This document shows, one piece after another, positions 20,096 to 48,731 of a DNA stretch of 64,000 nt. The DNA is taken from NCBI RefSeq assembly GCF_020520425.1, contig NC_079491.1:6745143-6809142 (forward strand), written 5' to 3'. The DNA is from Spinacia oleracea (lineage: Eukaryota; Streptophyta; Magnoliopsida; Caryophyllales; Amaranthaceae). The translations under genes were made by a program, and so were the position numbers. Position 1 is the first letter of the stretch, and each line of letters begins with the position of its first letter. Below the pieces are notes generated by a model, which made no database searches, had not been told where the DNA came from, and was given only the letters and a program-made list of their open reading frames with translations.

Positions 20096-20732
20096 TTACT
20101 TCTTCAAGCCCAAGCCAAATGTGCCTTTTCAACCACCCCACCAGATGTTTTAAGTTTAAACAAGATCTTCTTGGTTTTCAGTTGAACAGAAGTTGAAATG
20201 ATGAGAATCTTGATCTGTTAATTTTAGTTGGAGGCATCATTAGAATTAATGACTAATTTCACCCTACTTGGTACTTACCTCTTTAACCCTTTATATTTAC
20301 AGGATTTACCAGTAATAGAATCTGATTCTTCTTTATCTTATCAACTTTTGCTAAACAATAATTATATTCCAAGTTCCAATAATCTAATAAAGTTTCATGC
20401 TATATTCAAAAGTACAGTTTCACAAAATTTGACGCGCCAAAAACACCTAACTACTACGCGTCTACGTATGTGCTACTTTAGTACGGAGTAACATGGTAGA
20501 GGTGATCGATATTTGGGCCGGGCCGGGCCGGGCCGGGCTTCCTGCCAAACCCAAAATTTTGGTGTAGGCTTTTCAGATCGAACGGGGATCGGGCTATAGT
20601 TAATAAGGTCTATAACCAGGTTTTAACACACCTCCATGTAAGTAGAGTACGAAAAACTCTGTCAAAAACACTTCTCACTACTCAAATGCAAGAACTTTTA
20701 ATAAAATGTGTATCCAAATTGAGAATAAAAGT

Positions 20733-21157
20733 TGTTTGGGCTCCCAATTGATTCTCAATTGGGCCACTAAGTCCAAAGCCCAATGGCTCTAAACGACAAC
20801 ATCAAACCTACCAATGGCTATTCAGCCATCCATTAAGGCCCAAGGCCCAATAACAATAAATGACCTATGGGCATTTATTATGCAAACACTATAAATAGGC
20901 CGCCAAGGCTCACACCTCAAGGTACGTCCAATTTATCGCCTTAAGACTACTCTTCTAGAGAACTTCTCTCTAGAATCCGAGCATCATTCTTACTTAGGCA
21001 TCGGAGGGGCTTTCCTCGGAAACACCCCCGAGGCTAGTGACTTTGCTCTTGTGCAGGTGAATTCGGACTCCACTCATTCAAACAAGCAAGATCTTCAACA
21101 CATACAAAAGGGCCTTCATTCGAAGCCCATTGTTTCCATCTTTACAACACCGGAACA
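20733..21157 (+). repeat. 5' LTR of the Tat element
   Basis: Begins TGTTTGGGCTCCC and ends CCGGAACA. The copy at 31865-32289 appears identical. It contains a TATA box (20890-20897, TATAAATA), which marks the probable start of the genomic transcript about 30 bp downstream. Confidence 0.95.
20890..20897 (+). promoter_or_regulatory. TATA box of the Tat LTR promoter
   Basis: TATAAATA within the 5' LTR, about 155 bp from its start; the equivalent in the 3' LTR is 32022-32029. The position fits a U3/R boundary shortly downstream. Confidence 0.6.
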
Positions 21158-21160
21158 ATT

Positions 21161-21178
21161 TGGCGCCGTCTGTGGGGA
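21161..21178 (+). other. tRNA primer-binding site of the Tat element
   Basis: TGGCGCCGTCTGTGGGGA begins three bases after the 5' LTR. TGGCGCC is the usual start of the site in Tat/Athila-type elements, where it pairs with the 3' end of a tRNA of Asp or Arg type; the exact tRNA is not resolved here. Confidence 0.75.
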
Positions 21179-21227
21179 AGAACACTTCAAAGCCTTTGAA
21201 AGACATCAATCACCTCTTTCCGCGAAA

Positions 21228-24200
21228 ATGGTGAACGATGTTGTTAACAACAATGACGACGATATGATGGTGCGGTCAGATTCAGAATCTGACCAAGAGG
21301 GGCACCCTCAATCGATGGCGAGGTCACAGCCAAGCAGAGCTACGACCGCCACAAATGCAGGACCTCCGATTCCAACTAGGGAAGAGCTCACTGCGGCCAT
21401 GACCATCATGCAAAACTTCCTCTTCAATGAGAAGCAGCAAGGACTGGCAAATGACCGCAGAGAAGAGAGGAGGACCAGGCGAAGGCTGAACGAGCCACCC
21501 AGTGTGGAAGTGTCCAGACCCGAACGAGAACTCCTTCCCTTGACAGGTACACACTTGACGTCGAGGTGGATGGAAAGCACGTGGGACACCCAAAAAAGGG
21601 CACAACAGCAACCAGATTGGTTTGCGAGACCATCGCCTACTCCAACAGCTCTCCAAAGCGAATCAACTACTCGTAATCCTCGGATCCGAAGCTCGGTACT
21701 CAGCAGGTTGAGGCCCTCGGTCCACTCAAGGTTAAGACCTTCGATCCATACGAGACTCGGGGTAGGTGAGTCGAGTAGATCTGGCGAGCGACCCGAGGTC
21801 AGTAGCCGAGAAAGAAGAAGAGACGGGAGGCATGATCGAACCCCTAGCCCCCATCGTACGCCCGAACGTTCTAATCACAGAGCCTCGGCAAACGAAGGCA
21901 TCAGGGCTAGACTCGGGAAAAGAATCATGACTCCTACGTCATCCCCTTTCTCGGACGAGCTGATCATGGAAGAAATACCGAAGGTAAGGCTGCCAGCTCA
22001 CCTAACCTACAGCGGAATCACAGATCCGAGGGATCATGTCATCTCCTACGAGCAGCAGATGTTCTTGAGTCCCTACTCCGAAGCATGCTGGTGTAAATAC
22101 TTCCCAACCACGCTAACCGGAGTGGCGGGAGAGTGGTTTAGATCGCTGCCGAAGGGATCGATCAAGAGTTGGAAAAAGCTGAAAAAGAGATTCTGCACAC
22201 AGTTCGTGAGCAACAATCGCCCCGAGCGAACCACAGCAGAACTGACCTCAATCCAACAAGAAAGAGACGAAAGTCTGAGAGAATTCATGGCCAGATTCAT
22301 GAAGGAATCAACAAACATACCAAACTTGCAGCCAGACGTGGCCATCTTCGCCTTGAAGCACGCGCTCCAGGAAGGGAAGTTCCGTGACGAACTCTCAATG
22401 AAGAACCCCTCCAGAATAGCTGACGTGCTCCAAATGGCTGATGCGTTCATCAGAACCGAAGAGTTCAACAAGGCCGCTGCAAGATTGAAAGGATCGTCGG
22501 ATCCGAGAGACACAAAGAATACTCAGAGCAAGCCCGAGGGCGGCTCAAGGAAGGGGAAAGAGAAAGTAGGAGCTAGAGAGATGAGCCCGAAGAAAGACGG
22601 GAGAAGGGGTGAACTTCAACCCAAGTACACCAACTACACTCCACTAGCTCTGCCCCGAAAGGAGATATTCAGCCTCAATAGAAATGACGAAAAGTGGAAA
22701 CTACCTGGGAAGCTCAAGTCCAACCCAGCTCGGAGAAACAAGAACAAATGGTGCGAGTTCCATGATGACTTCGGTCACCATACCGAAGAATGCAACTCGC
22801 TGAAAGACAACATTGAGGACCTCGTTCGCCGAGGCTACCTGAAACAATACTTGTTAGACCGAAGGGAGGAAAAAGAAAAGGCCGCAAGCGGCAAACAACA
22901 CGAGCAACCCCAGAAAAGGGTCTACGAAGCAACAGGGCACAAGAAAAATGACATCCTAGTGGTGTTCGGGGGACAGAAGTCTGGCCAGGCCAGCAAAAAA
23001 CACCTAAGAGCCCTCTCCCATCGGGTCAACTTCAGCGCGGTGGGAGACAACCAACCACACCCCCCGAACATGACCTTCACTGCTGATGATTGCTTCGGAG
23101 TCCAGTACAAACATGACGATCCTCTGGTCATTTCCATGGACCTCAACAACCACAACGTACATCGAGTGTTAGTCGACGGAGGAAGTGCCGTCAACATCAT
23201 CTTCAGAAACTGCTTCGAGCAGCTGATCCTCGAAGAACCAGAGGAAGCACTGACGAAAGTCAGTTATCCTCTGATCGGATTCAACGGATCCGCAGCTATC
23301 CCTCGAGGAAAGATCACCCTGCCAGTCACAGTGGGCGAAGGCCAGGCAGCAAAAACCCTTCGGGACGAATTTTTGGTGATGGACTGCGACTCCGTATACA
23401 ACGTAATCATGGGGAGAACCATGATTCACAAGATGCAAGCAGTCCCCTCCACATACCACCAGCTGATGATATACGTCTCGGATGCAGGATTCGCCGAACG
23501 AATCAGAGGTGATCAAGAAGTGGCGAGAAGAACCTGCCACACTGCTGTCCGAAAACCCAAATTGGAGGACGGCCCCGAGGAAGGAAAGGGAGCTAAGGGA
23601 GAGGAAAGCGAGGCAAAAAGGAGAAGAGCAAGCACGAGCAGCTTGTCTCCCGCAGAAGTTGATGCCCGCCCCGAAACCCCATCTCCCGAACCAGATCAAG
23701 AAATGGAGGATATCTTCCTCGAAGATAATTCAGACAGGAGCGTCCGAATAGGCAAGGGCCTAAGCTCGGGGCTCCGAATCGATTTGATCCGACTACTCAA
23801 GGATCACAAAGACATCTTTGCATGGTCAGCAGCAGATATGCCAGGGATAAATCCGAAGCTGATTTGTCACAAGCTGGATGTCAACGCTGAAGCTCGGCCA
23901 ATCAAGCAAAAAAAGAGAAATTACTCCTCGGAGAAAAACAAAGCCATCGCCGAGGAGGTTAAAAAGTTGCAAGAGGCCGGATTCATCGAACCATGCATGT
24001 ATCCGAAGTGGCTGGCCAACGTGGTGATGGTCAAGAAAGCGAACGGCTCATGGCGAATGTGCGTAGATTTCACAGATCTGAACCGAGCCTGCCCCAAAGA
24101 CTGCTATCCCCTGCCAAGGATAGATCAACTGGTTGACTCCACCAGCGGCCATGCACTGCTCAGCTTCATGGATGCCTTTTCAGGCTACCACCAAGTATTC

Positions 24201-26981
24201 ATGCACCCCGATGACAGGGCAAAGACAGCGTTCATCACAAGCGCAGGAGTGTTCAACTACAAAATGATGCCTTTCGGCTTGAAAAATGCCGGAGCCACCT
24301 ACCAGAGGTTAGTTGACCACGTCTTCGCCGACCAGAAAGGGAGGAATGTGGAGGTCTACGTGGATGACTCCATCGTAAAAAGCATCAAGGAGGAAGACCA
24401 TGTCAAAGACTTGGCAGAGACCTTCGGAAATCTGAGGAAATACAGCATGAAGCTGAACCCAAAAAAATGCGTCTTCGGGGTGAAGTCAGGGAAGTTCCTC
24501 GGATTCATGGTGAGCGAAAGAGGAATTGATGCGAACCCAGACAAAGTCCAAGCGGCATTGGATTTACCCGAGCCGAAGACCAAGAGAGATGTGCAGAGGC
24601 TAACCGGCAGGTTAGCCGCACTAACAAGGTTCATATCAAAAGCCTCGGACAAGGGAGCCCCCTTCTTCAAGGCACTGAAACCAAAGAACCTCCCCGGAGG
24701 AGAAGCAGAACCAGTCAAGAAAAAGGGGGTCCCGAGGAAAGTGGATCCCGAACTGATATGGGAACAGGAGCAAAAAGAAGCTTTTCAGCAACTCAGAGCC
24801 CACCTAGCTCAACTGCCGACACTGGCCAGACCAAAGGAGGGGGAAACCCTGTACCTATATGTCGCAGTTAGCCCTGGAACCGTCAGCGCAGTGCTTCTTC
24901 GGGAAGAAGAAAAGAAGCAACAGCCAATCTAATTCACCAGCCGAACACTCACAGGAGCCGAAACCCGGTACCCACTCATCGAGAAAGTCGCATATGCAGT
25001 AGTGGTAGCTGCACGAAAACTGAGGCCATACTTCGACTCCCACCAGATCACAGTGCTAACTGACCAACCGCTCGAAAAAGTACTCGACAAAATAGAGAGG
25101 TCAGGAAGATTGGCTGCCTGGGCCTTCGAACTATCAGAGTTCGGCATCAAATATCAGCCGAGGACAGCAATCAAAGCACAAGCATTGGCAGACTTCTTGG
25201 CCGAGTGCTCATACCAGGAAATGTTGGATGATACGAAAAGCACTTGGGAGGTCTTCACTGACGGATCTTCCACAGTAAACGGCTCAGGGGCAGGAGTTGT
25301 ACTAATCCCCCCGACGGGGAAAAGCATAGAGTATGCATTGAAGTTCGGCTTCAAAGCAACCAACAACGAGGCCGAATACGAGGCCGCAATCGCAGGGATA
25401 GAGCTTTGTTTATCCCTGGAGGCCGAACATGTTCGCCTCAAAACTGATTCCCAGCTTGTAGCCAACCAGATCCGAGGGGAGTATGAGGCCAAATGGCCCA
25501 GCATGACAGCCTATTTAGCAAAAATTAAATCCTTAACGTCAAAGTTAAGATCCTTTGAAGTCATCCTCATTCCCCGAGGACAGAACACGCAAGCAGACGC
25601 ACTGTCCAAACTCGCAAGCTCAACACTCATCGACCTAAACAGGTCGGTCCACGTGGAAGTTCACCAAAAGAGAAGCATCGACTTGCTACCCACCACAGTA
25701 TGCAGCTTACGTACCGAACCTAGCTGGATGGACGCAGTAGTTGCATACAAAGAAAGGGGAGAACTTCCCGAAGATAAGCTGCAAGCGAGAAAACTGAGAA
25801 GATTCAACAGATGGTTCATCATCAGCGCCGAAGGAGAGCTCATGAGGAAATCATTCTCTGCTCCGCTGCTAAAATGTGTGGGTCCAACAGACGCTGACTA
25901 CATCCTAAGGGAAATCCACCTCGGGATATGCGGAAACCACATTGGAGGTAGGACATTAGCACATAAAGCCCTTCGGGCTGGGTACTGGTGGCCCACTATG
26001 GTTTCCGTGGCAAAGCAGATGGCAAGGAAATGCGAGAAATGCCAAAAGTTCGCACCAGCCATCCATCAACCAGCTCAAACCCTACAATCAACACTGTATC
26101 CCTTACCATTCGCACAGTGGGGGTTAGACATCATTGGTCCCTTTCCCTCAGCGACGAACCAGAAGAAGTGGTTGATTGTAGGAGTCGACTATTTTAGCAA
26201 ATGGATCGAAGCCGAAGCTGTCTCCTCCATCACCGAACCCCAGGTCCGCAAGTTCATATGGCAGAACATCATCACAAGGTTCGGCATACCAAGACTGATG
26301 GTCTTCGACCACGGGAAACAGTTCGACAACACCCCGTTGCAAAAGTGGTGCAAACAGTTCGGCATACACCTAGCGTACTCGGCAGTCTGTCACCCACAAA
26401 GCAACGGGCAAGCCGAAGCTGCTAACAAACTCATCCTCAACGCACTCAAGAAAAGAGTCGAGGATGACAAAAACAAATGGTTAGAAGAGCTACCCGGAAC
26501 GCTATGGTCCCTTCGGACCACTGAAAAAGAAGCTACCGGACAAACACCGTTCCACCTTGTATACGGATCCGAAGCTGTAATTCCTGTGGAAATCGGAACA
26601 GAAAGCCTGAGGATCCAGGCATACAACAGATATGATGGGCTCCAAGGAGAAAGCAACAATCAACTTCTATCCGAAGCTCTCGATCTACTGGACGAAGCTC
26701 GGAACGATGCAAGGACACTCAACGCAGCCTATTTGCAGAGGGTCAATAAGCATTACAACCGAAGAGTCAACGCCAGACCTCTAAAAGTCGGTGATCTAGT
26801 ACTCAGAAACGCCGCCTCGGTTCAGAAAGGACGGATCCATGGCAAACTCTCAGCCACTTGGGAAGGACCATACATCATCCATTCCGAAAAAAGGCCAGGC
26901 ACGTATATGCTGAAACAGTTAGATGGAACAATCCTGAAGAACCATTGGAATACCGATGTTCTCAAGAAATATTTTGTATGA
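21228..26981 (+). CDS. Tat gag-pol polyprotein with one in-frame stop
   Basis: The frame opens at ATG 21228 and runs to 26981, broken only by TAA at 24930-24932 (codon 1235); the same frame resumes at once, so this looks like a single nonsense change or a leaky stop. Order by residue: charged N-terminus with an SRLRPSxHxRL repeat (about 160-185); gag core about 254-430; an unusual zinc-knuckle-like C/H motif about 508-525; aspartic protease with DGGSA near 650; reverse transcriptase with YVDD at 1044-1047; RNase H containing the stop; second RNase H (about 25240-25620, FTDGSS, NNEAEYEA, TDSQLV); integrase HHCC zinc motif (about 25905-26045) and DDE core (LDIIGP, VFDHGKQFD, GQAEA). The start is chosen because upstream sequence is LTR and PBS. 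All enzymes of reverse transcription and integration are otherwise present. Confidence 0.9.
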
Positions 26982-27364
26982 TCTCTGTCTGTAAACCAAG
27001 TAAGTTGTTTAATGAGAAGAGGAAAGCCATTGGCACCATGTGTTTCATTAAACTTATCTCTATAATTATTGTCCCTTTATATATATATGCAGCCTCGGAT
27101 CTGATCAATCCGAGACTAAAAACAGGTTGACTTTGCCCATTCCTTGATAAAATGCAAGAAATGACCAAATCATACACTTCAGGGAATCGTCCAGAATCCT
27201 CGGATTCGCGGTACCCTAATAAAATTTGTTCGCAACAAACAGTCGCTCGAATCAAGTTATAAAACTCCGGCTCAGATCCACGGATCGCCGAAGGCATAAC
27301 TAAAGAGGCAGACTAGCGATCTCTTGCCCAGGTTTCCGAACCACAAGAGATCGGAAGAACAATC

Positions 27365-27740
27365 CAAACCTCTGAGCAGATCGACGGATTTGAAGAGTCT
27401 GGAAACTAAAGAGTCTCTTAGCAGATCTACGGATTTGAAGAACTCGCAAAACTAAAGAGTCTCTTAGCAGATCTACGGATTTGAAGAACTCGCAAAACTA
27501 AAGAGTCTCTTAGCAGATCTACGGATTTGAAGAACTCGCAAAACTAAAGAGTCTCTTAGCAGATCTACGGATTTGAAGAACTCGCAAAGTCAAAGAGTCT
27601 CTTAGCAGATCTACGGATTTGAAGAACTCGCAAAAGTTAAAAAGTCTCTTAACAGATCTACGGATTTAAAGAGCTCGCAAGATCAAAAGGTTTTTAGCAA
27701 GTCTACAGAAAGAGGAGCTCGAGAAATCTACGGATCTAAA
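27365..27740. repeat. 46-bp tandem array in the Tat 3' region
   Basis: Units begin GAGTCTCTTAGCAGATCTAC at 27411, 27457, 27503, 27549 and 27595, exactly 46 bp apart; diverged copies flank these on both sides (about 7-8 in all). The array lies between the integrase stop (26981) and the end of the antisense gene (28036). No spacers differ between units, so it is a simple tandem array. The remaining bases 26982-27364 and 27741-28035 hold no gene. Confidence 0.9.
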
Positions 27741-27799
27741 GACCTAAAATTGCGAAAGTACAAATTGAAAAGAAGCAGCCAAGTAACAAACATTCATTT

Positions 27800-27805
27800 T
27801 TTATT
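27800..27805 (-). terminator. Poly(A) signal of the antisense gene
   Basis: AATAAA on the minus strand about 230 bp past the antisense gene's stop codon. Positioned as expected for 3' end formation before the tandem array. Motif evidence only. Confidence 0.4.
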
Positions 27806-28035
27806 CAATATTTGGGGGGAGTACAAATACACTGAAAACCTCAAAAATTGAAAACAAAATGAAACAGTTAAAATCGGCAGCCATCAACAGACAATACCGG
27901 CCTACCGAAGTACTAAAGAAAGCAAAAAGAAATGAGTACAACGCAGCGCCGAGGCAAAAGGGGGAAAAGCAAGCACATATTCGGAAGTCCTCAACTGGAA
28001 CCGACCGACTCTGAAGAAGACGACTGCCCGAATCC

Positions 28036-31000
28036 CTAACTCTTGGGAGTCTCAGGAGCGGCCCCTAGGGGAGCATCCTTCGAAGAACCCCCAGCAGTGG
28101 TATCACCTTCGGAAGTTGCCTTCTGGGCCCGAGCCTCTGCAAGAGCAGCTTGGCGTTCAGCTTCAGCTTCATCTCGATCAGCTTGGCATTCCACCAAGTG
28201 GTCCTCGGCCTGCATCCATAGAGGAACTTTCTCGTTCCAAGGGAAGTGAGGCATGTGCTTCGCAAACATGCGCCGAGCACCCAGGATGCCGTTCCAATAC
28301 TGCTCTCTACACTGATCAGCAGTGTAGAGGTTGACTCGCTCCTGCTCCAGCTTCCGAATATAGTCATCCTTTTCCCGAAGCTTCAGCCGAAGGACAGGCA
28401 CCTTATCAGCTTGCTGCTGGATCAGCTCCCGATGCTGGACAAAATGGTGGAGCCTTAACTCCGCCTCTTTATGCTCCTTGTCGGCCGCTTCAAATTTAGA
28501 CTTCATCTCCTGGAAGAGTCTATCTTTTTCCTCAAGTTCGCTAGCGAACTTAGCGGCCATATCCTTCTTTTCCTCAGCAAAGGAAGCGATCTTCTCAGCA
28601 TCCTCTTCAACTCGGAAGATGAGCTGGCCAACCTCGGTCCCGATCTTCTCAGCAGACTCTCTAGCCTCGCGACTATAGTGAAGGTACAGCTGCTTGAGTT
28701 CCGTAAGCTCGGAGAGGAGTTGCCCAGCCTTCTGGTCCAAAATGGGAATATCACGAGCATAAGCCTCACGATATTTCCTCAGTTGTTTCTCCTCAACCGA
28801 GCTACACTCGAAAGCGAACGAAGACCAGAAAACAGCCTGGGAACGAGAGAAAGATGAGCAAAATAGGAAAAACATAAAACAAAAACACAACTCAAAGAGA
28901 AAAATCTAGCAAATTACCTCGTTCAGATAGTACTGGGCCATCATAGCCGGATTCCTCTCTTCGGCCCCAGGAACCCTCCACTGCGGGTTAGCACGAAGCA
29001 GATTCTCCCGAGCAGCCTCGGGGCCCACCAAGGATCCCACGTGAGCCAAGGGGTCCTCTCCCAAAATCGGAGCCCTGGCATATCGAGCCATCGCCTCCCT
29101 TACTTCTTCGGGGATCCGTTTTAGCGGAACATCCGAACAGGGATCAGCATGGATCAGCCTATCCAGGGCCGAGGTAGAAGTAGAACCCAAAGTTGAGTGG
29201 CGCCTCTTCCTCGTCAAACCTTGCTCGGGCTGCTCCTCCTCTCCAGCAGAGGGAACCTCCTTCTGAACCTCGGGGACCGCAGCTTCGGGGCCCGAGAGAT
29301 CTATCATCTCCTTGTCTGGACTCTTCTCCCTCTCGAAGGGAAGATCAGCAGACTCCTTCTTCTCCCCAGCTACCTCAGGGACATCCGAACCAGGAACAAA
29401 ATCGGCTTCAATCGCCTCCATCACCTCGGTGATATCCTGGATTTCGATCCCCAAAGCAGCAGATGGTTTAAGGGGAGAAGGGATGATATCTTCCTCGACC
29501 AGCGGCTGATCCACGGGCGGCGGTTCAGCAACCACCACACTCTTTAACTTCTGCCCTGGCAAGGGCATGAAGTGAAGAAGATTCTTAGGAGGAGGCATGA
29601 CTTCCGAAACCGCTTCCTACATAGCAAGCGTTCAAAGATTAGTTTCCGAAAAAGGGAGAAACGAACTACAAAAAATCCAAGTCAGAACAAATACCTTCTC
29701 CGAGGGCCGAGAAGCCTTCGCTTTCTTCGGATGCGTGGACGGCCTCAAAAGAGTGCTACCCTTCCTTTTGCGTTGATCCTAAAAAGGGGAGACCAAGGGT
29801 CAACGAATATAAAAGAAGAAAAAGGAAGAAATAGAGAAAAAAGCGGGAAATACCCGGTTCCTAGATAAAGTGATATCTATCCGAGCCGGAGATGAAACCG
29901 AAGGAACGGCACGCGGCACAGCGTCAGTCCCAGGACCCTAAAAAGATGGTCCAGGACCAAGACGTTAGCCGACGGCCAACCGAAAAGAAAAAGATAAACA
30001 GAAAATCGAGCTTATAAATGAACACTCACCGGGTCCGAAGTTGTCTTCAACTCAGGAAGCACAACCTTCACAGGAACAGCTTCAACAGAAGAGGCGGAAT
30101 CCCACGGATCAGCTCGAACTTCGGATATCCGAGCAACCCCCGAAGGAGACAACACGTAATCCTTCAGACGAGGATTACGAGGGTTATCTTTTCCGAACTT
30201 GTACTCGGGAGCCGGGTCGTGAATAGTCTTCAAATCCAAAGAAATGCCCAACTTCTTAGGATCAATGCAGCTAAAGCCGTACTCTGCAAAAACAAAGCAC
30301 AAAACATGTCAGCAAAACGAAACAGGAAAGAGGACAAACTCACTGAAAAAACGGTCTCAGCCGAAAGACACCTACCCCTGTCAAAAATCCTGCTGAGACC
30401 GGCAACAGCAAGAATGTCCTCCCTCAAAATGTAATTGAGATTCGGGAGCCAGCTAGACGGCAGTCGATGGTTATCCTCTTGAGCCAAGAACCACTGGAGG
30501 AGGTCCACATAGTGGCGATGGTTCCGATCTGGAGCTGCCACACCCCTCATATCAGGATCAGGAGCCACGAACCACTGCGGAGGACGATAAAAGTTGGGAT
30601 GCTTCGGATCCGTCGGCACACGGACGAGCAACCACTCCGTCTTCCAATTGTGGTCAGAGCTAAGGTAGGGGTACGCCGTGATGTAGTTCGGATCCCCCCT
30701 CTTTCGGGACTTCTTGTTGACAATGGTCCACCAACCATACCCATCACCCTTGGAAGCATGGTTGAGAACCAGATCGTGAAGATCCCGAAAAATAGCGACA
30801 GAGCAAGGGAAATTGACGAAGTCACACACCCATCTAAATCCGATTATGTGCCTCATAGATTTGGGTGTGAGCTGGGCCAAACTAATGTTGTACGACACCA
30901 AAAGCTCGGATACGAACGGATCCAAAGGAAAGCGGAGACCATTCTCCAAATGGTGAGTATACACGGAAATGAACCCCCTCGGTGGATGAGTCACCCGAGG

Positions 31001-31423
31001 ACGCTCTTGTTCAGGAAGCTCGCACCAGTACCCCAAGGCATGCTGAATTCCGTATAGCTCCTCGGCCTTCCGATGATAATTCCCTAACTTCGCTTCCACC
31101 AACCAGTCACCGCTGACCGATTTCTCCAACGGACCGTCGATCTGCGTGGTCTCATGCAAAATTGAGGCATACTTGCCCTTCGGATCAGCTTCCGTCCAAT
31201 GAACTGGAAACTCGGAGTAACGACGACGAGCACCCGAAAAGCCAGCTCTCTCACCAGAGGTTGCGCGTTCATCTTCGGAAGCATCCCAACCAATCGAACT
31301 CTTCACCAACGGCCTCTCCGAAGGTCGACCCCTCGAAGATTTCGGTAACCTCCCCGAAGGCACGTTCTCTCTCTCACTAGAGGAACCAACAACGAACTTG
31401 CTTTTGCCCCTATTCTTTGCCAT
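28036..31423 (-). CDS. Antisense six-exon gene inside the Tat element (989 aa)
   Basis: Exons on the minus strand: 31423-30376, 30283-30030, 29937-29854, 29778-29695, 29616-28918, 28836-28036. All five introns are GT-AG and short (76-92 bp); phases agree (1,0,0,0,0), and no stop interrupts the 990-codon frame. The N-terminus is basic and serine-rich. Residues about 148-225 (HPPRGF, GLRFPLDPF, LTPKSMRHI, WVCDF) resemble the 'putative gypsy type transposon' domain (Pfam Transposase_28). A WWTIVNKKS segment follows. Exons 3-4 are short, 28 codons each, and basic. Exon 5 is acidic and proline-rich. Exon 6 is a long coiled coil (about 735-900), ending in an Ala/Glu-rich tail. Antisense extra ORFs are known in some Tat elements (for example Grande); function is unknown. 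Because it is spliced in the minus direction, these introns are not removed from the sense genomic RNA and so are retained through retrotransposition. Confidence 0.85.
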
Positions 31424-31674
31424 GGTCGCGAAATCTCGATCTAGGGTTTAGATTGAGGGGTAGAAGGAAGAGCGAAGAAAAAAGGAGAACTCAGAAGCAA
31501 ATTACCTTTTTCCGAAGCGGAATTCGCCGATAAAGCGAACAACACAAGTTCCCGAAGTCTAAAGTTGGCCGAATTTCGTAGATCTGAAGAAGCAAATTGC
31601 ACTGCGATCGCCGGAATTTAGAGAGAGAATGGGTTTGAAATAAGGAGTAAAAAGTTCAAAAAAAGCAAAGCACC

Positions 31675-31685
31675 CAGTATTTATA
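31675..31685 (-). promoter_or_regulatory. TATA box for the antisense gene
   Basis: TCTATAAATAC on the minus strand, about 255 bp upstream of the antisense ATG, just inside the 3' LTR boundary. It would start a transcript running away from the LTR with a leader of about 220 bases. Motif evidence only. Confidence 0.5.
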
Positions 31686-31842
31686 GAAAAGAGAAAGGGC
31701 GCATCAACTTCCTCAAACCCACGATCTCCATGACACATTACAATTCCCAACACTTGTCATCAATGCAAATCATCCCTTTTCAAAAAAGAGAGGGAACCTT
31801 CGGACTTCTGACAGCTGGAAACCCACCCATTTAATTCTAAAT

Positions 31843-31864
31843 GGACCGGGTCTGGGGGGCATGT
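31843..31864 (+). other. Polypurine tract of the Tat element
   Basis: A G-rich stretch (GGTCTGGGGGGCATGT) lies directly before the 3' LTR at 31865, as needed for plus-strand priming. Boundaries approximate. Confidence 0.65.
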
Positions 31865-32289
31865 TGTTTGGGCTCCCAATTGATTCTCAATTGGGCCACT
31901 AAGTCCAAAGCCCAATGGCTCTAAACGACAACATCAAACCTACCAATGGCTATTCAGCCATCCATTAAGGCCCAAGGCCCAATAACAATAAATGACCTAT
32001 GGGCATTTATTATGCAAACACTATAAATAGGCCGCCAAGGCTCACACCTCAAGGTACGTCCAATTTATCGCCTTAAGACTACTCTTCTAGAGAACTTCTC
32101 TCTAGAATCCGAGCATCATTCTTACTTAGGCATCGGAGGGGCTTTCCTCGGAAACACCCCCGAGGCTAGTGACTTTGCTCTTGTGCAGGTGAATTCGGAC
32201 TCCACTCATTCAAACAAGCAAGATCTTCAACACATACAAAAGGGCCTTCATTCGAAGCCCATTGTTTCCATCTTTACAACACCGGAACA
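31865..32289 (+). repeat. 3' LTR of the Tat element
   Basis: 425 bp, apparently identical to 20733-21157, followed by the target duplication AAAGT. Confidence 0.95.
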
Positions 32290-32652
32290 AAAGTATATAT
32301 ACTTGTAAAAAAATCATCATTTTTGTATATGCAATCTTCTTTATACAAAAGCTACATATGGTAAATTACAATTGTTCCATCCTCTTTTAAAAGAATGGGT
32401 TTTACAAACATTACAAAGATGACAAATTCACCACATTTCTGAAAACAAAACTTGCCAACATTTTTTAACTACTTCAATTCGTATATGTATAAATCCTCTG
32501 ACCTGTATAGTTAGCTTCTGAATTTCTTCTACCTCTCTTTCAACCTTCGAAAACGATCGAAAAAATCATTGTAATAATCTGTTCAAAATCATGAAATCTT
32601 TTCGGGTTTCGGGCTTCGATTAATCGTTGACAAATAAACTTTCTGGTTTCTA

Positions 32653-43916: not shown

Positions 43917-44255
43917 GTATATGGGTGAGATGACTCTGACCCGCATGTATTTTTCCATGACCCGCAAATGACCGCCCCGCTAGTGAGCTGCCCCGACCCG
44001 CCCAATTTATGCATATCGGATCATACATCTCATCCAAAGTCTGATGATATATACTTCGTACCATACTACCATAAGGCATTGGCAGCAAGTTTTGGACTTG
44101 AAAAGAAATTCTTGGAAATACAATACCTTGTTTGATCACAACTCACACAAATACACAATACGTTGGTAAAACCTTGTTATTTAGGAACATAAGACTGACG
44201 TGAAAACATAGAAGAAAAGGGAAGTGAGGGAGATTAAAAAATGCAAAGAATGAGG

Positions 44256-44337
44256 CGTGAGCGGCAGGATTCGAACCTGCGCGGGCAAAGCCCACATGAT
44301 TTCTAGTCATGCCCGATAACCACTCCGGCACGCTCAC
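44256..44337 (-). tRNA. tRNA-Ser (anticodon AGA)
   Basis: 82 bases on the minus strand, starting GTGAGCG and ending CGCTCACG, so the seven-pair acceptor stem closes with discriminator G. The anticodon loop reads ACTAGAAAT with AGA central. A long variable arm (GTGGGCTTTGCCCGC) and a T arm with GGTTCGAATCC are present, as in class II tRNA-Ser. A-box and B-box sequences give the internal Pol III promoter. No intron. Confidence 0.95.
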
Positions 44338-48658: not shown

Positions 48659-48731
48659 GTGGCTGTAGTTTAGTGGTAAGAATTCCACGTTGTGGCCGTG
48701 GAGACCTGGGCTCGAATCCCAGCAAGCCACA
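48659..48731 (+). tRNA. tRNA-His (anticodon GTG), possibly defective
   Basis: Starts GTGGCTG, with D-arm box TAGTTTAGTGGTAAGA, anticodon loop GTTGTGGCC (GTG), and T arm GGGCTCGAATCCC. It is almost the standard plant tRNA-His, but the 3' acceptor strand reads CAAGCCAC where CAGCCAC would pair with the 5' strand: one extra A. The extra base would bulge in the stem. It may be a functional variant or a pseudogene. It lies about 340 bp from the SNU13 start, on the other strand. Confidence 0.8.

Follow-up and report, generated by a model that had tools for sequence, protein, structure and literature searches.

Antisense genes are known from long terminal repeat (LTR) retrotransposons of the Retand lineage in plants. 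Antisense open reading frames (ORFs) with the TRP28 domain (Pfam Transposase_28, PF04195) were reported in 97% of recent Retand clusters (Vicient, 2025; PMC11963269), and an earlier survey, limited to extra ORFs with 250 codons or more, detected Transposase_28 in 23% of Retand elements (Neumann, 2019; PMC6317226). In the maize element Grande, the product of gene23 is nuclear and the gene possesses its own promoter, and the authors of that work called for a search for spliced antisense transcripts (Vicient and Casacuberta, 2020; PMC7264820). A review of 2025 names Ogre and EVADE as plant LTR elements that exceptionally contain introns (PMC12786077), and the accessible text of a spinach repeat survey uses neither the word "Retand" nor the word "antisense" (PMC6337768). 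Here we analyzed a stretch of 64,000 nucleotides of spinach, Spinacia oleracea (C5:6745143-6809142, hereafter the window), in which an LTR retrotransposon carries a predicted TRP28 gene with six exons and five introns on the strand opposite to gag-pol.

While the antisense TRP28 genes of the Retand lineage are already known, the intron structure of such a gene and its age were not found in print. No description of introns in antisense genes of plant LTR elements appeared among the literature matches listed; older work on Grande and Retand and a survey of 2011 lay outside that scope, and a prior description is possible. The anatomy of the gene and the selection on its antisense frame are hardly in doubt. 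The reading that we favour, with less assurance, is that of an accessory gene resident in a Retand-type element, spliced five times, whose product would be a nuclear regulator.

Anatomy of the antisense gene and selection on its frame

The predicted gene lies on the minus strand and starts with an ATG at 31423. Exon 1 (30376..31423), which encodes the TRP28 domain at amino acids 154-216 (30964-30776), is followed by intron 1 (30284..30375; 92 nt, phase 1), exon 2 (30030..30283), intron 2 (29938..30029; 92 nt), exon 3 (29854..29937; 84 nt), intron 3 (29779..29853; 75 nt), exon 4 (29695..29778; 84 nt), intron 4 (29617..29694; 78 nt), the acidic, proline-rich exon 5 (28918..29616), intron 5 (28837..28917; 81 nt) and the coiled-coil-like exon 6, which runs to the stop (28036..28836). 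Introns 2 to 5 are all in phase 0, and the five introns are all GT-AG. The predicted spliced frame comprises 2970 nt (989 amino acids and the stop), in agreement with a first-pass annotation of the window that had proposed six minus-strand exons, five GT-AG introns, consistent phases and an uninterrupted 990-codon frame. That annotation had also pointed to a TATA-like box upstream and an AATAAA downstream, and both are present: the TATA box CTATAAATA (31678..31686, minus strand), presumably part of the antisense promoter, precedes the ATG by 263 nt and lies in the internal region adjoining the 3' LTR, and the presumed poly(A) signal of the gene is found at 27800..27805 (minus strand). The TATA core CTATAAATA and the AATAAA stretch were retained in 40/40 copies of the family.

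The five introns had a G+C content of 0.32-0.42, all below the six exons (0.50-0.57), and a T content of 46-57%. Keeping intron 1 or 2 produced a frameshift, and keeping intron 3, 4 or 5 produced an in-frame stop. The three longest minus-strand stop-to-stop stretches measured 405, 289 and 236 codons, the first of them containing exon 1. In 1000 dinucleotide-Markov random sequences made from the same 3.4 kb, the longest open stretch reached 328 codons, with a median of 124 and a 99th percentile of 227.

Sibling copies were searched in the spinach genome (894 Mb, 242 contigs) using sequence from exon 6 and intron 5 as query, and the best 40 of 597 candidates were scored, the window copy being one of them and the other 39 being fetched. 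GT-AG was found at all five introns in 39/39 fetched siblings, and the antisense frame was uninterrupted in 37 of them (L017 and L045 were broken). Exon indels relative to the window copy measured 27 nt (one copy), 3 nt (three copies), 2 nt (one copy) and 1 nt (one copy); single-base indels accounted for all four found in introns and for 12 of the 19 listed in the flanks. At the third-last base of intron 4 (29617-29619 in the window), 18 of the 40 copies had T and the other 22 had C, with the AG kept, a split that equals the sizes of two subfamilies (18 and 22 copies).

Among the 40 copies we counted 83 nonsynonymous variants, 121 synonymous variants and 1 stop, where neutrality predicts a nonsynonymous to synonymous ratio (N/S) of 2.3-3.2 depending on transition bias. 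In exons 1, 5 and 6, N/S was 0.64 in the antisense frame, compared to 3.59 and 4.42 in the alternative minus frames and 3.37, 6.16 and 1.01 in the plus frames; we take the plus frame at 1.01 to mirror the third positions of the coding frame. Between the subfamilies (396 pairs), the nonsynonymous (dN) and synonymous (dS) rates were 0.0058 and 0.0308, respectively, giving a dN/dS of 0.19. Change at codon positions 1 and 2 is restrained: they differed by 0.8 and 0.6% against 2.0% at position 3, and the differences in introns, upstream and downstream sequence were 1.6, 1.8 and 2.0%, respectively. Exon 1 of three distant families described below had median dN/dS values of 0.20 (36 pairs), 0.11 (6 pairs) and 0.02 (3 pairs), calculated for 16 of 19 loci (without L051, L052 and L068). 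The selection on the antisense product that the first-pass annotation had suspected is thus borne out by the N/S, the dN/dS and the 37 intact frames; one half of the outcome it had named as speaking against its proposal was a dN/dS near 1 with frequent stops, and what we observed was 0.19 between subfamilies and 2/39 broken frames.

Intron retention and the age of intron 1

We also looked for intron-less copies in the genome. A 40-mer across the unspliced boundary of exon 5 and intron 5, used as a positive control, gave 79 matches, 77 of them exact and 2 with one mismatch, as if the family had spread in a single and very recent burst. With up to 3 mismatches allowed, the joined junction 5 gave no genome match against these 79 unspliced boundaries, and neither did the joined junction 1, which had no boundary control of its own. 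Old and diverged joined copies could be missed, because the control matches were nearly all exact and only the best candidates were scored. The count of 79 unspliced to 0 joined boundaries fits a sense genomic RNA that is unable to lose the introns and is no direct proof of splicing. As only the antisense RNA can splice them, the sense genomic RNA would pass the introns unchanged to new copies. That the antisense RNA is spliced is very probable from the genomic sequence, as it follows strongly from the conserved intron.

Distant relatives were obtained by a PF04195 search of the same genome, in which the best 150 of 2698 candidates were scored and 150/150 passed the cut-off; 0/14 control genomes gave a match. 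We examined 30 of the 150 scored loci, which were grouped as families F1, F2 and F3; F1 and F2, linked at 80%, were separated by their proteins. An alignment (A1) was built from the window copy and 17 of 19 open-frame loci, L051 and L052 being left out for their short stretches. The 17 aligned exon-1 proteins showed 23-29% identity to the window protein, and PF04195 was matched by 18/18 proteins of the alignment.

Exon 1 ends with a motif around GL, and a few codons later the codon of the window copy is split as G|GT. In a laxer scan, this motif was found in 26/30 loci (it was missing in L063, L065, L070 and L074) and GGTA stood at the same place in 25 of the 26, the exception being L059. A stricter scan that required an open frame found the motif in 19/30 loci and the donor in 18, with L059 again as the exception. 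The 25 GGTA loci belong to three families and should not be counted as independent. All ten loci inspected had a phase-1 acceptor 69-130 nt downstream that continued the frame, acceptors in distant loci being chosen by frame and pyrimidine content. Intron 1 shares its position and phase with the distant families, and the plain reading of these sequences is that the common ancestor of the antisense genes already had this intron.

Pol sequences were also sought near the distant genes. In F1, RNase H and integrase were located on the opposite strand 4.6 kb away (46.6 and 45.1% identity), and the pol pieces for F3 and F2 (L094, L095) gave no pol match at the distance tried, so that antisense placement is demonstrated in F1 alone among the distant families. 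The first-pass annotation had described a spliced passenger gene that can be inherited through retrotransposition. Its inheritance part stands in so far as the introns are not visibly removed by copying (79 versus 0 for intron 5), whereas the word "passenger" is not supported, because antisense TRP28 is resident in the lineage and intron 1 is common to distant families. The antisense gene seems to have served these elements for a long time as a functional component and does not look like an accident.

The host element

The antisense gene sits between a tandem array and the 3' LTR of an LTR retrotransposon that occupies 20732-32288. A 428-bp exact repeat (20731-21158 at its first occurrence) corresponds to the LTR pair, with no difference between both LTRs. 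The 5' LTR (20732..21156, plus strand) measures 425 bp if AAAAG is the target-site duplication, and the 3' LTR (31864..32288, plus strand) is identical to it. AAAAG (5 bp) flanks the element at 20727-20731 and 32289-32293 and is a candidate duplication that remains tentative because the sequence is of low complexity. On the plus strand, a stop-to-stop open frame (20895..24932) contains gag (22095-22352) and reverse transcriptase (24030-24509) and is closed by an in-frame stop at 24930-24932; the remaining pol frame (24933..26981, plus strand) contains RNase H, the RNase H-like domain RVT_3 (25260-25613) and integrase (26106-26396), as detected by a Pfam scan. No protease family appeared among the Pfam matches of the element up to an E value of 0.1.

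The first-pass annotation had deduced selection from an intact antisense frame beside a broken pol, and this argument fails. Pol was checked in 15 of the 39 siblings, of which 14 cover codon 24930-24932, and the stop was absent from 14/14. A single damaged pol beside an intact antisense frame is uninformative about selection, because siblings lack the stop and the two LTRs do not differ; it is no sign that the antisense gene is favoured over pol.

The tandem array, with 6.8 copies of a 46-bp unit (27370..27680, plus strand), separates pol from the end of the antisense gene. When the pol pieces of the 15 siblings were fetched at the predicted distance, 12 were shifted by 45-47 bases, one by 92 and one by 2, and one gave a partial match, as if the array differed by whole units among very young copies. 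The same window also contains genes for tRNA-Ser (aga; 44254-44337, minus strand) and tRNA-His (gtg; 48659-48731, plus strand).

As for lineage, the element belongs to the Tat group of Ty3/gypsy, where the first-pass annotation had already placed it. A second RNase H-like domain, aRH, is a Tat trait (PMC6317226), and in the window element RVT_3, which we read as aRH, is placed between RT_RNaseH and rve. The element is probably of the Retand type, as judged from size and domain figures and from the antisense TRP28. The published cluster "Spinacia oleracea 1" has an LTR of 425, an internal region of 10,719 and a distance from pol to the 3' LTR of 4,850, compared to 425, 10,707 and about 4,880 in the window element (PMC11963269). 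Both have gag, RNase H, integrase, antisense TRP28 and one tandem array; the cluster is also listed with a protease, which was not seen among the Pfam matches of the window element. The likeness is one of published figures and domain lists. The same survey counts separate ORFs of at least 600 bp, and its accessible text does not contain the word "intron", in contrast to the single spliced gene model proposed here (PMC11963269).

The antisense product, alternative readings and known systems

The profile match that the first-pass annotation had proposed to look for was obtained: Transposase_28 matched the product with an E value of 1.3e-10 and 41.8 bits against a curated cut-off of 26.2. The product of exons 3 and 4 is basic, with 14 K/R and 4 D/E among 56 residues. 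A structure model of exon 1 had a mean predicted local distance difference test (pLDDT) score of 50.8, with 71-80 at residues 151-220. The single match of the exon-1 sequence among solved structures, a kinase at an E value of 0.19, was rejected as chance. No relatives were found in viral contigs, whether the query was exon 1 by itself or alignment A1.

We propose that the antisense gene would be transcribed opposite to gag-pol, from a promoter of its own that lies in the internal region adjoining the 3' LTR, and that its RNA would be spliced five times to give a 989-amino acid protein composed, in this order, of the TRP28 domain, a basic stretch resembling a nuclear signal, an acidic linker and a coiled coil. 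The protein would most likely enter the nucleus, pair via its coiled coil and regulate the DNA of the element itself, either in its expression or by protection from silencing. Such nuclear regulation by the antisense protein, suggested by its domain make-up and by Grande, seems fairly probable.

Several observations weigh against this reading. The evidence for splicing is genomic only, and splicing is without a direct witness, as the genome search turned up no intron-less copy for junction 1 or junction 5. Donor matches are moderate (6-7 of 9 positions of the consensus). The intron difference between subfamilies is close to that of codon position 3 and the flanks, yet it is about half of dS (3.1%), so that freedom from constraint is not evident for the introns. 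No bias towards any codon position is seen in exons 3 and 4 (3 and 7 variable sites, too few to tell), which makes their borders the least certain. The siblings, being the best matches of the search, lean to young copies, and pairwise dN/dS in the distant families reaches 0.96 in F1 and 0.85 in F3, the latter having a dS near saturation. At intron 1, a rival AG among the listed candidates scored equal or better by pyrimidines alone in the window copy and in 7/10 loci (L050, L062, L068, L071, L072, L075 and L076), and shared introns in distant families appear established for intron 1 alone. Finally, exon 6 has 81% hydrophobic residues at a/d positions in its best 56-residue stretch and register, a measure taken without a control.

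The antisense protein might be selected for a structural coiled-coil role in assembly, packaging or integration and not for regulation. The coiled-coil-like C-terminus would suit this role by the same uncontrolled measure, and a DNA-related role is not established in so far as no solved structure resembles exon 1 in sequence beyond the E value of 0.19. However, the basic stretches and the nuclear product of Grande point to the nucleus (PMC7264820), and DNA-binding residues have been predicted in TRP28 (Vicient, 2025; PMC11963269). We consider a purely structural protein unlikely.

In a more elaborate form of regulation, the protein would be a sequence-specific anti-silencing or self-regulating factor similar to VANC of Arabidopsis. 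It would bind the 46-bp repeats of its family and a related site in the antisense leader, keep the element active and change together with the repeats. Its introns, which the sense genomic RNA is unable to splice and which are thereby shielded from loss, would have passed through reverse transcription from a time before the genome's Retand families separated. This proposal draws on the analogy with VANC, on the neighbouring array and on a weak echo of its motif in the leader, and taken as a whole it is decidedly doubtful. The array core motif is echoed at 12/14 positions at 31572-31585 (minus strand), a match noticed post hoc, and the array motif had 15 matches in the window versus 7.4 expected, about half of them inside the array.

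It could also be that the antisense RNA itself acts, by pairing with the genomic RNA and feeding small-RNA silencing or blocking reverse transcription, and that the frame is incidental. Double-stranded RNA can indeed form from antisense transcripts of LTR elements (PMC7264820; PMC12786077), but codon selection in one frame (N/S of 0.64 versus 1.0-6.2), the similarity of TRP28 proteins across distant families and the 37/39 intact frames make an RNA-only function very improbable. We give equally little credence to a real frame with weakly used introns, in which exons 1, 5 and 6 would be translated as separate shorter ORFs. Surveys do tally antisense ORFs singly (PMC11963269; PMC6317226) and no joined copy was found in the genome for junction 1 or 5, but the exons share one frame only after GT-AG removal, and families at 23-29% identity have intron 1 in the same codon and phase. 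Recent capture of a host gene as a passenger, which the introns would suggest to have happened once as DNA or in antisense and not as a spliced mRNA, is extremely unlikely given that the gene is present in the 39 fetched siblings, that all scored TRP28 matches (150 of the 2698 candidates) pass the cut-off and that nearly all published Retand clusters carry the gene (PMC11963269). An ancient capture of a host gene is possible.

If the gene is, as we favour, a resident one spliced five times, several consequences follow. Surveys of Retand elements have so far tallied their antisense TRP28 ORFs piecewise, and one selected, spliced gene alters both the annotation and the protein to test; it may also explain why TRP28 is sometimes found in short ORFs. 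It would be a natural case of introns enduring a reverse-transcribed life cycle in the long term, owing to their opposite orientation. Work on the function of these genes gains a defined full-length product and defined junctions.

Compared by description with known systems, the gene resembles gene23 of Grande in its antisense orientation, its position between pol and the 3' LTR, its presumed own promoter and its putative nuclear product (PMC7264820). With HBZ of HTLV-1 it would have in common an antisense, spliced and polyadenylated gene at the 3' end of a retroelement and a regulatory product; HBZ, again compared by description, differs in that it starts in the 3' LTR, has two spliced variants and belongs to a human retrovirus (PMC1459196). 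HBZ appears to be the nearest in its way of working to the antisense gene of the window, whose splicing is predicted from genomic sequence. The Arabidopsis VANDAL elements differ in being DNA transposons, and binding of the repeats by the window protein would be a guess. The likeness to their VANC lies in an extra protein encoded by the element and in fast-changing noncoding tandem repeats (PMC10398659).

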